DNA from: an uncultured Pelagibacteraceae bacterium
Lineage (GTDB): Bacteria; Pseudomonadota; Alphaproteobacteria; Pelagibacterales; Pelagibacteraceae
Length of the DNA stretch: 64,000 nucleotides
Direction of reading: 5' to 3'
NCBI GenBank assembly: GCA_902629695.1
Contig: CACORY010000004.1
Coordinates: 1-64,000 of the forward strand
In this document: piece by piece, positions 2,449-18,199 of the stretch
Layout of the letters: each line of letters opens with the position of its first letter
Position numbering within the stretch: the stretch's first letter is position 1
Notes under the pieces: generated by a model
The model's input: only the letters and a program-made list of their open reading frames with translations
The model's database searches: none
What the model was told of the DNA's origin: nothing
Translations under genes and position numbers: made by a program

Positions 2449-3639
2449 ATGTCGAAAGAAAAATTTGTAAGAAATAAGCCGCATTGTAATATCGGTACTA
2501 TTGGTCATGTCGACCATGGTAAAACTACTTTAACAGCTGCCATCACTAAAGTTTTGTCAGAAAAAGGTGGAGCGCAAGCAGTAGCTTACGATCAAATTGA
2601 TAAAGCTCCGGAGGAAAAGGAGAGAGGAATTACAATTTCAACTGCACATGTAGAGTATGAAACAGAAAAAAGACACTACGCACACGTAGATTGTCCTGGA
2701 CATGCTGACTATGTAAAAAATATGATTACTGGTGCTGCTCAAATGGATGGAGCTATTTTAGTTGTTAATGCTGCAGATGGTCCAATGCCACAAACTAGAG
2801 AACATATTCTTTTAGCAAGGCAAGTTGGTGTACCAGCAATAGTTGTTTACTTAAATAAAGTTGATCAAGTTGATGATAAAGAAATGATTGACTTAGTTGA
2901 AGAGGAAATTAAAGAATTATTAACTTCTTATAAATTTCCTGGTGACAAAACACCTATAGCCAAAGGTTCAGCTTTAGCTGCAGTTGAAGGTAGAGATGAT
3001 GAGATTGGTAAAAATTCAATTATGGAATTAATGAAAAACGTTGATGAGTTTATACCTCAGCCTGATAGACCAAAAGATAAAGATTTCTTAATGCCTGTTG
3101 AGGATGTTTTTTCGATTTCAGGAAGAGGTACAGTTGCAACTGGGAGAGTGGAGTCAGGTGTGCTAAAAACTGGTGATGAATTAGAAATCGTTGGTATTAA
3201 AGAGACAAAAAAATCAGTTTGCACAGGTGTTGAGATGTTTAGAAAACTTTTAGATTCAGGTGAAGCTGGTGATAACGTAGGTGTGCTTTTAAGAGGTGTA
3301 GAAAGAACAGATATTGAAAGAGGTCAGGTACTTTGCAAACCCGGTTCAGTTACACCACACACAAAATTTGAAGCTCAGGCTTATGTGCTTAAAAAAGAAG
3401 AAGGTGGAAGACATACTCCTTTTTTTACTAAGTATAGACCGCAGTTTTATTTTAGAACAACAGACGTAACTGGTGAGGTAGAATTACCATCAGGCACTGA
3501 AATGGTAATGCCTGGAGATGATGCTAAATTTACAGTTAAACTGATTACTCCAATAGCAATGTCAGAAAAATTAAACTTTGCAATTAGAGAAGGTGGTAGA
3601 ACTGTTGGAGCAGGAGTAGTAACTAAAATTATAGAGTAA
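2449..3639 (+). CDS. tuf: Elongation factor Tu
   Basis: [40 protein letters not shown] motifs; 396 aa. Confidence 0.99.
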
Positions 3640-10629: not shown

Positions 10630-13600
10630 ATGAAAAAAGAATTATCAGAGTTATTTAAAAATTCAGAAATAATAGAGTCTCAAAATTTTAATAGCATTAA
10701 AATTTCTTTGGCAAGTCCTGAAAAAATAAAATCTTGGACCTATGGTGAGATAAAGAAACCAGAAACAATTAATTATAGAACTTTTAGACCTGAAAAAGAT
10801 GGACTTTTTTGTGCAAGAATATTTGGTCCAATTAAAGACTATGAGTGTTTATGCGGTAAATATAAAAGAATGAAATTTAGAGGGATAATATGTGAAAAAT
10901 GTGGTGTCGAGGTAACAAAGTCAAATGTTAGAAGAGAGAGAATGGGCCACATAAATCTTGCTACTCCTGTTGCCCATATCTGGTTTTTAAAATCTTTACC
11001 AAGCAGAATTGCTCTAGCGGTCGATATGAAATTAAAAGAAATTGAGAGAGTTTTGTACTTTGAAAATTTCATAGTAATAGAACCTGGGCTAACAGGATTA
11101 CAAAAAAATCAACTTTTAAATGAAGAGGAACTAGCAAAATACCAAGATGAATTTGGAGAAGAAGCTTTTACAGCTGGTATAGGTGCAGAGGCAGTTCTTG
11201 AAATGTTAAAAAGTTTAAATTTAGAATCTGAAAGAAAAAACCTAGTTAACTATATTAAAGAAACAAAATCAAAAGTTAATGAAGAAAGAGCAATCAAAAG
11301 ATTAAAGTTAATTGAGTCATTTATTGAAACTGGTCAAAAACCTGAGTGGATGATTATGACTGTTGTTCCTGTAATTCCACCAGAGTTAAGACCTTTAGTT
11401 CCATTAGATGGTGGAAGGTTTGCAACATCTGATCTAAACGATCTTTATAGAAGAGTAATAAATAGAAATAATCGTTTGAAAAGATTAATGGATTTAAAAG
11501 CTCCTGACATAATTGTTAGAAACGAAAAACGTATGCTCCAAGAATCTGTTGATGCACTTTTTGACAATGGAAGAAGAGGTAGAGTAATTACTGGCACAGG
11601 CAAAAGACCATTAAAATCGCTTGCCGAAATGTTAAAAGGTAAACAAGGAAGATTTAGACAAAATTTATTAGGTAAACGAGTTGATTACTCTGGTAGATCA
11701 GTAATCGTTGTAGGACCAGATCTAAAATTACATGAATGTGGTTTGCCAAAAAAAATGGCATTAGAATTATTTAAACCATTTTTATATGCTAGGTTAAATA
11801 AATTAGGGTTAGCATCAACTATCAAACAAGCAAAAAAATTGGTTGAAAAAGAAACCAATGCTGTATGGGATGCATTAGAACTTATTGTAAGAGAACACCC
11901 TGTTTTATTAAATCGGGCTCCAACTCTTCATAGACTTGGAGTTCAAGCTTTTGAACCAAAATTAATTGAAGGAGATGCAATTGAATTACATCCATTAACA
12001 TGTGCAGCTTTTAACGCAGATTTTGACGGAGATCAAATGGCAGTCCATGTACCTTTAAGTCTTGAAGCTCAATTAGAGGCAAGAATTTTGATGCTTTCAA
12101 CAAATAATATTTTATCCCCATCTAATGGGAAACCTATAATTGTACCGAGCCAAGATATGATTTTGGGTATCTATTATTTATCCCAAGAACCAGTAACTGA
12201 TAAACCAATGGGTTATTTTTTAGATGCTGATCAAATTGAATTTGCATTGTCTTCTGATCAGATTAAAGTTCATAGCACGATTATTTCAAGATTTGAGACA
12301 GTAGATGAAAAAGGTAATAAAAAATTTGAAAAATATACGTCTACTGCTGGAAGGTTTTTATTAGCAAATTTACTTCCTAAAAATTTTAATATCAAATTTT
12401 CTTTAATTGATAGGCTTTTACCTAAAAAAACTGTTTCAGAAATTATTGATGTAGTTTTTAGATTTTGTGGTCAAAAAACAACTGTAATTTTCTGTGATAA
12501 ACTGAAAGACTTAGGTTTTAAGCATGCGTTTAAAGCTGGAATTTCATTTGGTAAAGATGACTTGGTAATACCAGAAAATAAAACACAACTAATTGATGAC
12601 ACTAAAAAATTAATCGCAGATTATGAAACACAATACGCAGAAGGTTTAATTACTAGAGGTGAAAAATATAATAAAGTGGTTGATGCTTGGTCAAAGTGTA
12701 CAGATAAAGTTGCAGGTGAAATGATGAAAGGTATTTCAGCTACAGAGAAAACTTCTGAAGGACTTAAAATCAATTCAGTATTTATGATGGCTGATAGTGG
12801 TGCTAGAGGCTCAGCTGCTCAAATGAAACAATTAGCAGGAATGAGAGGATTAATTGCAAAACCATCTGGAGAAATTATTGAAAGTCCAATTACTTCAAAT
12901 TTTAAAGAGGGTTTGACTGCTCTTGAATATTTTAATTCTACTCACGGAGCTCGAAAAGGTTTAGCTGATACAGCTTTAAAAACTGCTAGTTCAGGTTATT
13001 TAACAAGAAGATTATGTGATGTCGCCCAAGACTTAACAATTACAAAAAAAAACTGTGATACCCCAGGGTTCATTGAATTATCAGAAATTTTAGAAGGGGG
13101 AAATGTTGTTGTTAGTTTATCAGAAAGAGCACTAGGGAGAGTAGCAGCTTCTGATGTAAAACATCCATTGACTGGAGATGTGATAATTAAAAAACTTTCA
13201 ATGATAGATGAGTTTGGATGTGATGAGATTGATGCAGCAGGTATAAAGTCACTAAAAGTTTTTTCTGTGATGACTTGTAGCTCAAAAGAAGGAGTTTGTG
13301 CTACCTGTTATGGAAGAGATTTATCTAGAGGTAAAATGGTCCATGTCGGCGAGGCAATTGGAATGATCTCTGCACAATCAATTGGTGAACCAGGAACTCA
13401 ATTAACCATGCGAACTTTCCACGTTGGTGGTACTGCATCAGTGAAACAAGATTCTCAAATTGTAACTAAAAATGAGGGAGTTTTGAAAATTATAAATTCA
13501 AATATTTTAGAGGACTCGAAGAAAAATCTAATAGTTATGGGTAGAAATACTCAATTATCTATTGAAGATGATAATGGAGTTCAAGTTGCAATTTATAAAG

Positions 13601-14793
13601 TTGCTTATGGTTCAAGATTATTTTTTAAAAATGGTGATAAAGTAAATGCAAACACAAAAATTTGTGAATGGGATCCATACACAACACCAGTAATTGCTGA
13701 AAAAAGTGGTATAGCAAGTTATGTAGACTTAATTGATGGAGTTACTATACAAGAAACTACTGATGATGCGACTGGTATTTCCTCAAAATCAGTTATTGAT
13801 TGGAGATCACAGTCAAAGAGTTCTGAATTAAAACCTCGTATTACATTAAGAGATGAAAAAGGAAATGTAATTAAAAAAGCAGATGATAATGAAGCAAGAT
13901 ATTATTTAGTTCCTGATTCAATTTTATCAGTAAAAGATGGTCAAAAAGTTTCAGCAGGAGATGTAATTGCACGACTACCTAAAGAGACAACTAAAACAAA
14001 AGATATTACTGGAGGTCTTCCAAGAGTAGCAGAATTATTTGAGGCTAGAAAAGCAAAAGATAGTGCAATAATAGCAGAGAATGATGGACAAGTTGTTTTT
14101 GGTAAAGAGGTACGTGGCAAACAAAGAGTTTCAATTGTTCCTGAAGATGGATCTGAACCCTCAAATTATTTAATTCCTAAGGGTAAACATATTAATTTTA
14201 ATCAGGGTGAAAAAATTAAAAAAGGTGAATATCTTCTAGATGGCCAACCTCTTCCGCATGATATTTTAAGAATAATGGGAATAAAAGATTTAACAGAATA
14301 TTTCGTTAATCAAGTCCAAGAAGTTTATAGATTACAGGGAGTAATTATAAATGATAAGCATATTGAAACGATTTTAAGACAAATGCTTAAAAAAGTTGAA
14401 ATTAAATCTTCAGGTGATTCATCATATTTGCCTGGTGAAATTGTTGATCGAATAAAATTCGAAAATATGAACGAAAAATTAAAATCTGAAGGAAAAAAAC
14501 CTGCTCTTGGTGAAAGAGTATTAATGGGTATTACTAAAGCATCATTACAGACTGAGTCATTTATATCTGCTGCATCATTCCAAGAGACTACTAGAGTACT
14601 TACAGATGCTGCAATAAAAGGTAAAGTTGATCCTTTGAATGGTCTTAAAGAAAATGTAATTGTAGGTAGATTAGTTCCTGCTGGCACTGGAAATATTAAG
14701 AACAAGTGGAATAAAAAAGCTCTTGAGGATGATAATAAATTCTTGTCAGAACAGGAGAAGATAGAGCCTTCTGAAAGCCAGACAAATCAGTAA
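10630..14793 (+). CDS. rpoC: DNA-directed RNA polymerase subunit beta'
   Basis: 1387 aa; '[16 protein letters not shown]' catalytic motif; zinc-binding '[23 protein letters not shown]'. Confidence 0.99.
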
Positions 14794-14822
14794 AAATAAG
14801 TATTAAAATCAATAGTTTTAGT

Positions 14823-14850
14823 TTGACAAAATCAAATTAATAAGTAATTT
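14823..14850 (+). promoter_or_regulatory. Candidate sigma70-type promoter for rpsL-rpsG-fusA
   Basis: TTGACA (14823-14828), 16-nt spacer, TAATTT (14845-14850); would place the start at the base of the structured leader. Confidence 0.4.
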
Positions 14851-14854
14851 GGCG

Positions 14855-14935
14855 ATATTTTTGGTTGGAACGTAGTACTACTTAACGTACTAAACGCTGC
14901 CATAATAACCTGTCAGTTATTTCACTCAAAAATAT
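14855..14935 (+). ncRNA. Candidate structured 5' leader RNA upstream of rpsL
   Basis: Closing helix ATATTTTTG (14855-14863)/CAAAAATAT (14927-14935) enclosing two hairpins: TAGTAC/GTACTA (14873-14878/14887-14892) and AATAAC/GTTATT (14904-14909/14916-14921). Confidence 0.55.
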
Positions 14936-14959
14936 TAACTAATTTAAAAAATAAGAATT

Positions 14960-15331
14960 ATGCCAACGATTAATCAGTTGTTAAAAAAAAAAAGAGTAAA
15001 ACAAATTACCAGGAATAAAGTACCTGCTCTTGAAAAACAACCTTTGAAAAGAGGTGTATGTGTGAAAGTTTATACAACTACTCCCAAGAAACCTAATTCA
15101 GCTTTAAGAAAAGTTGCTAGAGTGAGATTATCCAATGGTTTTGAAGTTACAGCTTATATACCTGGTGAAGGACATAATTTACAAGAACACTCAGTTGTTT
15201 TAATAAGAGGTGGAAGAGTAAAAGATTTGCCGGGTGTTAGGTACCATATTTTAAGAGGAAACTTAGATACTCAAGGTGTTGCGAATAGAAAAAAAAGAAG
15301 ATCTTTATACGGAACAAAAAAAGGTAAATAA
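14960..15331 (+). CDS. rpsL: 30S ribosomal protein S12
   Basis: '[63 protein letters not shown]'. Confidence 0.99.
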
Positions 15332-15810: not shown

Positions 15811-17889
15811 ATGGCTAGATCACATACATTAGATAAATATAGAAACATTGGGATCATGGCTCATATCGATGCTGGTAAAACTACTACTACTGAAAGAATT
15901 TTATATTATACAGGAAAAAGTCATAAAATAGGTGAGGTACATGATGGTGCTGCCACAATGGACTGGATGGAACAAGAGCAGGAGAGAGGAATAACAATTA
16001 CCTCTGCAGCTACTACATGTTTTTGGCAAGATCATAGAATTAATATTATAGATACTCCAGGTCACGTTGATTTTACTATTGAAGTTGAAAGATCATTAAA
16101 AGTTTTAGATGGAGCTGTAGCTGTATTTGATGGTGTAGCAGGTGTAGAGCCACAATCCGAAACAGTATGGAGACAAGCTGATAAATATAAAGTTCCAAGA
16201 ATTTGTTTTGTTAATAAATTAGATAGAACTGGAGCTGACTTCTTTAGATGCGTTGATATGATTAAAGATAGATTAGGAGCTAAGCCATTAGTTTTACAAA
16301 TTCCGGTTGGAATTGAAGCATCATTAACAGGTGTTGTAGACCTAGTAAAAATGAAAGCTCAAATTTGGAAAAATGAAGCCTTAGGCGCAGAGTGGGAATA
16401 CAAAGATATACCTGATGATTTAAAAGAATTAGCTAACAAATATAGAACAGAATTAGTTGAAATTGCAGTTGAGCAAGATGAAAAATTAATGGAAAGTTAT
16501 TTAAATGGTGATGAAATTAAAGAAGATGACCTTAAAAAATGTATAAGAAAAGGAACATTAAATTTTGATTTTGTTCCAGTTTTAACTGGATCAGCATTCA
16601 AAAATAAAGGTGTTCAACCATTATTAGACGCTGTTGTAAACTATTTACCAAGCCCTTTAGATATTGGTTCAATTAAAGGCACAAAAGTTGGATCTGATGA
16701 AGAAGTGGAAATGAAATTTGATGATAATGCAGCATTTTCTGCATTAGCATTTAAAGTTGCCAATGATCCATTCGTTGGATCTTTAACGTTTATAAGGATT
16801 TATTCTGGAACCATTAAATCTGGTACTGCAATATATAATTCTTCTACTGATAAAGAAGAGAGAGTAGGAAGAATGTTACTTATGCATGCAAATTCTCGAG
16901 AAGATATTAAAGAAGCAAATGCGGGTGATATAGTTTCGTTAGCTGGTCTTAAAAATACAATGACGGGACATACTTTGTGTAATAAAGAAAATTTAGTTTT
17001 ATTAGAGCCAATGGAATTTCCTGATCCAGTTATTGAAATCGCTGTAGAGCCAAAAACAAAAGGTGACCAAGAGAAGATGGGAGAGGCTTTGGCAAGATTA
17101 GCAAAAGAGGATCCATCATTTAGAGTTTCTTCGGATGAAGAGTCGGGACAAACAATAATCAAGGGTATGGGTGAATTACACTTAGATATTATCGTTGATA
17201 GAATGAAAAGAGAATTCAAAGTTGAGGCAAATGTTGGAGCTCCACAAGTTGCTTATAGAGAAACTATTGAGAAATCTGCTGAATTTGAATACATCCATAA
17301 AAAACAAAGTGGTGGTGCTGGACAGTTTGCTAAAGTAAAACTTTTTGTCGAGCCACAAGAACCTGGTGAAGGAAGACTTGTCGAAAGTGCAATTAAAGGT
17401 GGTGCAATTCCAAAGGAGTTTATACCTGGTGTAGAAAAAGGCATAGAAACAGTTTCTGATAGTGGAATTTTAGCTGGATTTCCAATGATTGATTATAAAG
17501 TAACGATAGTAGATGGATTGCATCATGATGTTGACTCGAGTGTATTAGCTTTTGAATTAGCAAGTAGAGCTTGTTTTAAACAAGCTTGTACTAATGGTGG
17601 ATTAAAATTATTAGAGCCTATTATGCGAGTTGAGGTCGTGACACCTGAAGATTATATGGGAGATGTTATTGGTGATTTAAATAGTAGAAGAGGTCAAATT
17701 AGCACTCAAGAACAAAGAGGTAATGCTACTGTAATAACTGCTATGGTTCCTTTAGCTAATATGTTTGGATATATAAACAATTTAAGATCGATGTCTCAAG
17801 GTAGAGCTCAATACTCCATGTTTTTTGATCATTATTCAAAAGTACCACAAAATGTACAGGACGAAGTAACTAAGAAAGTAGCTGGGTAA
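15811..17889 (+). CDS. fusA: Elongation factor G
   Basis: 692 aa; '[23 protein letters not shown]', '[23 protein letters not shown]'. Confidence 0.99.
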
Positions 17890-17890
17890 T

Positions 17891-18199
17891 ATGGAAAAGC
17901 AAAATATAAGAATTAAACTTAGGGCGTATGATAATAAAATTCTAGATGCTTCTACTGAAGAAATAGTAAATACTGTAAAAAGAACGGGAGCTACTATAAA
18001 AGGTCCTATACCATTACCAACAAGAATTGAAAGATATACAGTTCTTAGATCACCCCATATTGATAAGAAAAGTAGAGAACAATTTGAGTCTAGAACACAT
18101 AAAAGATTAATTGATATTATTGAACCAACCCCACAAACTGTTGAAGCTCTCATGAAATTGGACCTAGCTTCAGGTGTAGACGTGGAGATTAAGATATAA
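17891..18199 (+). CDS. rpsJ: 30S ribosomal protein S10
   Basis: '[61 protein letters not shown]'. Confidence 0.98.

Follow-up and report, generated by a model that had tools for sequence, protein, structure and literature searches.

A hairpin in the rpsL leader of SAR11 bacteria looks to be shared across the Alphaproteobacteria

The gap between rpoC and rpsL in a 64,000-nucleotide stretch of DNA from an uncultured Pelagibacteraceae bacterium (the window) contains an already known element, a member of the Rfam family RF01823. We found here that the strongest conserved unit of this leader is, on comparative evidence, one hairpin made up of a helix called Px, an internal loop ending in G opposite RAC, and a further helix, P2. 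The published structure lacks Px, which covaries across the genera of SAR11 and very strongly outside SAR11. A control element that was thought to be confined to SAR11 now looks to be class-wide, and we think it probable that, taken as a whole, this is a 5' leader of the rpsL operon with its own promoter and a class-wide core, which would exert autogenous control. The Px core, the class-wide placement before rpsL and the cases in which the core precedes rpsJ all appear to go beyond the RF01823 record.

Results

The locus and its promoter

The end of rpoC (10630-14793) is separated from rpsL by 166 nt (14794-14959), a long gap compared with the spacing of only 0-10 nt between the genes downstream of rpsL. 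This had been pointed out in a first-pass annotation of the DNA, and every feature described there is present in the sequence where it was placed. The promoter that it proposed (Table 1) is confirmed by conservation: TTGACA and a TANTTT box at 16-nt spacing occur in 64/64 unique related leaders. The pair went unscored in a simple promoter scan of the window because its -10 box is weak, and the better evidence for this promoter is conservation. A leader RNA with its own promoter is upheld, and a start near 14857 is plausible. In the window copy TTGACA lies 39 nt from Px, and a terminator scan found no terminator-like hairpin between the core and rpsL. Further downstream, rpsJ directly follows fusA without an intervening tuf (17887-17891); a 396-aa open reading frame at 2449-3639, adjoining tRNA genes, may be tuf.

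Table 1. Coordinates of the promoter, the leader RNA and rpsL in the window.
Feature	Position	Strand	Remarks
Promoter: TTGACA 14823-14828, 16-nt spacer, TAATTT 14845-14850	14823-14850	+	conserved in leaders
RF01823 (rspL / rpsL motif) match	14849-14936	+	81.9 bits; first positions overlap the -10 box
P1 closing helix, 5' strand	14855-14861	+	pairs with 14929-14935; from the sequence
Px 5' strand UGGUUG	14862-14867	+	pairs with 14897-14902; new helix
Internal loop, 5' side GAACG	14868-14872	+	final G before P2 near-invariant class-wide
P2 5' strand UAGUAC	14873-14878	+	covariation
P2 3' strand GUACUA	14887-14892	+	covariation
Internal loop, 3' side AACG	14893-14896	+	class-wide form RACG
Px 3' strand CUGCCA	14897-14902	+	covariation
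Second hairpin AAUAAC/GUUAUU	14904-14921	+	alternative to published P1b and P3; 67-81% of cells paired
P1 3' strand	14929-14935	+	ends 24 nt before the rpsL ATG; from the sequence
rpsL (S12)	14960-15331	+	NCBIfam; first gene of the rpsL-rpsG-fusA-rpsJ-rplC-rplD-rplW-rplB-rpsS series

Identity with RF01823

The suspicion, raised in the first-pass annotation, that an existing Rfam family might be involved proved right. The leader is a full-length match to RF01823 (model positions 1-89; 81.9 bits against a gathering threshold of 37; E 1e-13 in 64 kb, far beyond chance), it is the only copy recovered by a search of the genome, and it lies between rpoC and rpsL as RF01823 does. P1 and P2 are identical in the window copy and in RF01823. 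The two descriptions differ further in, since the published structure, which is also that returned by cmscan, has helices P1b and P3 where the present analysis has Px. For the 'rpsL motif', reported only from 'Ca. Pelagibacter ubique' and marine metagenomes, no ligand could be named (Meyer et al., 2009; PMC2704228). Its first conserved positions (UUGGCGAU, window 14849-14856) overlap the -10 box and the presumed start of transcription; because the Rfam model begins inside the conserved -10 box, these positions are probably promoter DNA and not RNA.

Matches to RF01823 occur in 229/398 genomes of the SAR11 order, all in one genus, with one match per genome in every genome among the matches listed. 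When 20 non-matching relatives of the genus were checked, 5 had an intact rpsL immediately preceded by a diverged copy; rpsL was cut at a contig end in 3 and no rpsL was found in 12, so that most absences look like assembly gaps. When viral contigs were searched for the Pelagibacter core pattern, none matched it exactly.

The conserved fold

The first-pass annotation had drawn three stems and looked to covariation to check them. The outer stem, P1, in which ATATTTTTG (14855-14863) pairs with CAAAAATAT (14927-14935), covaries by eye in other SAR11 genera (for example CUUUUUAAGG/CCUUAAAAAG), and P2 covaries in 4/6 pairs; both are supported. The third stem, AATAAC/GTTATT (strands at 14904-14909 and 14916-14921), has fared less well, being paired in only 67-81% of cells within Pelagibacter and lying outside the class-wide core. 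The helix that was missed is Px, the best supported of all outside Pelagibacter. The folding stability of the window leader is modest (z -1.94, with 9/200 shuffles folding equally well).

Within the genus Pelagibacter strong compensatory change is seen in P2 only, and the changes in the published P1b and P3 are mostly one-sided. RNAalifold picked Px instead, pairing UGGUuG with CuGCCA around P2. Px and the published P3 share letters: GCUG at 14896-14899, overlapping the 3' strand of Px, doubles as the 5' strand of P3. In most Pelagibacter leaders the published fold is the predicted best, and the probability of Px there is about 0.07. As candidates for a third stem, P3 and AAUAAC/GUUAUU each have some support within Pelagibacter and neither has any outside it.

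It is the other SAR11 genera which appear to decide in favour of Px. P1, Px and P2 are kept before rpsL in four other genera of the family, with Px in forms such as GGUAG/CUACC and UGUUAG/CUAACA, and the sister family of SAR11 keeps Px (AGUAG/CUACU, AGAAG/CUUCU), the loop and P2 before rpsL; in all of these Px encloses the same loop and P2. P1b and P3 are not recognisable in either group. Over five SAR11 lineages 24/25 Px pairs form, and when the Px arms were re-paired 2/120 arrangements did as well, the true pairing among them. A MAFFT alignment of the SAR11 cores (A3) misplaced the other genera and was left out of these counts.

These observations bear on whether the leader might be bistable, with the published fold and the combination of Px and the second hairpin as mutually exclusive states between which a ligand or co-transcriptional folding selects. 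Such an arrangement is possible, if doubtful. Two strands, GCUGCCA and GUUAUUUC, have a choice of two conserved partners each in the common Pelagibacter class, where the Px state is predicted to be less stable than the best fold by about 2.7 kcal/mol; in the most diverged clade of Pelagibacter the Px state is itself the best fold, with a Px probability of 0.93. However, the second hairpin is incompletely paired within the genus and missing outside Pelagibacter, and strands so rich in A and U may find partners by chance. An H-type pseudoknot formed by P3 and the second hairpin was dropped, as no linker remains to cross the helix. Separately, in one Pelagibacter clade (L049-L058, about 1550-1590) CACUA recurs downstream, and pairing of this second copy with the 5' strand of P2 would disrupt P2 in a fold predicted at about -21.6 kcal/mol.

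The core outside SAR11

A covariance model of Pelagibacter leaders restricted to P1 and P2 (R1) found nothing outside the genus at E 0.001 in 386 genomes of the class. A strict descriptor of the core also matched two other Alphaproteobacteria, both before rpsL, and inspection by eye of 29 upstream regions revealed the core, as GGNNGUAG...CUARACRC inside a longer Px, in 14 of them; a scripted descriptor gave about 12 matches at the leader in the 29 regions against 0.56 expected. In these 14 non-SAR11 cores the covariation of Px and P2 is 0.402 compared with 0.183 after shuffling, a value reached in 0/500 shuffles.

A second covariance model (R2), built from the 14 non-SAR11 cores alone, matches 79/386 class genomes at one place each: 76 directly before rpsL, 2 before rpsJ and 1 that looks like noise. 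Sixty-five of the 79 matching genomes were outside its training set. Covariation in 72 aligned cores is 0.457 against 0.203 shuffled (0/500 shuffles), although this alignment was fitted to the model and the result from the 14 sequences is therefore the cleaner. The promoter travels with the core, TTGAC being found within 75 nt upstream in 71/72 cores as opposed to 7/72 random windows, and 38-47 nt before Px in 70/72. All six core matches in a 299-genome sample of the phylum fall in the same class. At about half of the 29 rpsL loci sampled, R2 gave no match, so the core is not universal in the Alphaproteobacteria. No Rfam family reaches threshold on the ten non-SAR11 core loci examined, and we found no description of such a class-wide leader in the accessible literature.

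The window copy has Px, the G/RAC loop and P2 just after a TTGAC promoter and before rpsL, as the class-wide core does. In the SAR11 sister family R2 detects the leaders with E values of 0.0014-0.003, and 10/11 of the matches that it makes across 59 kb of SAR11 DNA coincide with the leader. In the 64-kb window its single match is the rpsL leader, but at 10.4 bits and E 6.8 the score is not significant. A further model, R3, did not find the window copy and was rejected as over-fitted to the non-SAR11 form, so that it loses Pelagibacter. Given these scores, the membership of Pelagibacter rests on intermediates and on position. Common descent of the Pelagibacter and class-wide cores nevertheless seems to us quite likely, since a chain leads from Pelagibacter through the other SAR11 genera and the sister family to other Alphaproteobacteria, with the same gene and the same promoter spacing. 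In sister-family genomes a conserved GUA...UAAAC hairpin-like match was also seen inside the downstream coding region (L097-L108, + or - strand, about 3138-3180), and is probably a coding coincidence.

The same comparisons make it unlikely that RF01823 is a SAR11-specific leader only, with the published fold (P1b GGAAUG/UAUUUC and P3 GCUG/CAGU) and no relation to the hairpins of other Alphaproteobacteria. Such a view would accommodate the weak scores obtained when models compare Pelagibacter directly with the class-wide core, the published fold being that of minimum energy in most Pelagibacter leaders, and the compatible changes in P3 in several clades, including one G-C to A-U pair. Against this, the most diverged Pelagibacter clade, the one that favours Px, has either lost P1b and P3 or shows them only doubtfully, and they are unrecognisable in the other SAR11 genera and the sister family, whereas the class-wide core shares its promoter distance, its GUA...UARAC loop and its gene with the SAR11 element.

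Between the core and rpsL, terminator-like hairpins occur in 32/53 unique non-SAR11 leaders compared with about 10 expected under a rough null, which suggests that transcription attenuation may operate outside SAR11. These are GC-rich hairpins followed by T runs (L123-L229), at about three times the expected frequency.

Discussion

The model that we favour is one in which the leader heads the long rpsL-rpsG-fusA-rpsJ... operon and would be transcribed from a promoter of its own between rpoC and rpsL, with the core hairpin beginning roughly at the expected start of transcription. A ribosomal protein made from the operon would, when in excess, bind the core and lower expression of the operon. 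In SAR11, rpsL translation would be the step controlled, by way of P1, which adjoins the start region; translation is the putative output step because there is no terminator there. In many other Alphaproteobacteria, control may instead act by transcription attenuation at the terminator-like hairpin between the core and rpsL.

The identity of the ligand is suggested by the two exceptional placements. In one genome (G447, L215) the core lies before rpsJ, which encodes S10, and there is none before its rpsL; in another (G751, L220) the core likewise precedes rpsJ. This placement was seen in these two genomes only, with the region upstream of rpsL examined in G447 only. If the same protein binds everywhere, a core that precedes rpsJ would imply a ligand encoded at or after rpsJ, and the G447 arrangement points to the S10 part of the superoperon, with L4 as the first candidate. 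The ligand would more likely come from that part than be S12 or S7, and L4 is a first guess by analogy. The core model gave no convincing match in the 16S-23S region of the genome. Mimicry of rRNA was rejected as a guide, since a relaxed descriptor returned 216 hits, the foremost being a long 16S helix that arises by chance; with no core-like rRNA site found, mimicry supports no ligand.

The first-pass annotation had suggested an autoregulatory site for S7 or S12, and our data do not support this. It is a natural thought, given that rpsL and rpsG are the first two genes of the operon and that the E. coli str operon is regulated by S7 (PMC10931766). A leader of this kind would be expected to show constant linkage to rpsL or rpsG, but the core precedes rpsJ in G447 and G751, and G447 is without a core at rpsL. 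Moreover, the S7 site of E. coli is located between rpsL and rpsG and, according to Meyer et al., is not resembled by the motif, and similarity to 16S rRNA was not found. We therefore regard S7 or S12 as an improbable ligand. That the gap holds promoter and spacer only, its RNA being without function, can be set aside as very improbable: the most invariant part does include the promoter, but downstream of it both P2 and Px show strong compensatory change, which would already refute such a reading unless the alignments are wrong.

A fuller version of the favoured model can be proposed, albeit tentatively. RF01823 may be the derived SAR11 form of an Alphaproteobacteria-wide autoregulatory leader, whose ligand, from the S10 operon and not S12 or S7, would recognise an internal loop that does not mimic rRNA, with attenuation in most of the class and translational control plus a switch between two folds in SAR11.

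Since its description in 2009 the rpsL motif of SAR11 has remained an orphan: it was known from one lineage, no ligand had been named, and tests are difficult because SAR11 bacteria do not lend themselves to cultivation or manipulation. Should the core be class-wide, the question shifts to tractable laboratory Alphaproteobacteria and to a 40-nt hairpin, and the largest ribosomal protein operon of the class would gain a control element. The finding of Px also appears to correct which helix Rfam should model.

Among known systems, the leader of the E. coli S10 operon is bound by L4, a known regulator of that operon. In that case an S10-operon protein controls its own operon from a 5' leader, and in view of the rpsJ placements this may be a working likeness; the E. 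coli leader is set apart by its place, the core described here usually lying before rpsL, and the likeness is one of mode of control only. Autogenous feedback on the same genes is exerted through the S7 site of the E. coli str operon (PMC10931766), but this site is in a different place, acts by breaking the coupling of rpsL and rpsG, and shows no structural resemblance (PMC2704228). RNA from the rpsL 5' UTR is reported to be produced in Rhodobacter sphaeroides (PMC7866481). The alphaproteobacterial L2 leader (PMC7247131) is a ribosomal protein leader from the same bacterial class, found before rplB inside the S10 operon and not before rpsL. Finally, the rpsL attenuators of Naville and Gautheret (2010; PMC2965389) are leaders with terminators before rpsL in several phyla, for which no conserved feature, and nothing in common with the SAR11 element, was reported. 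Many Alphaproteobacteria resemble them in having terminator-like hairpins 3' of the core, but the core itself, unlike those attenuators, is conserved.
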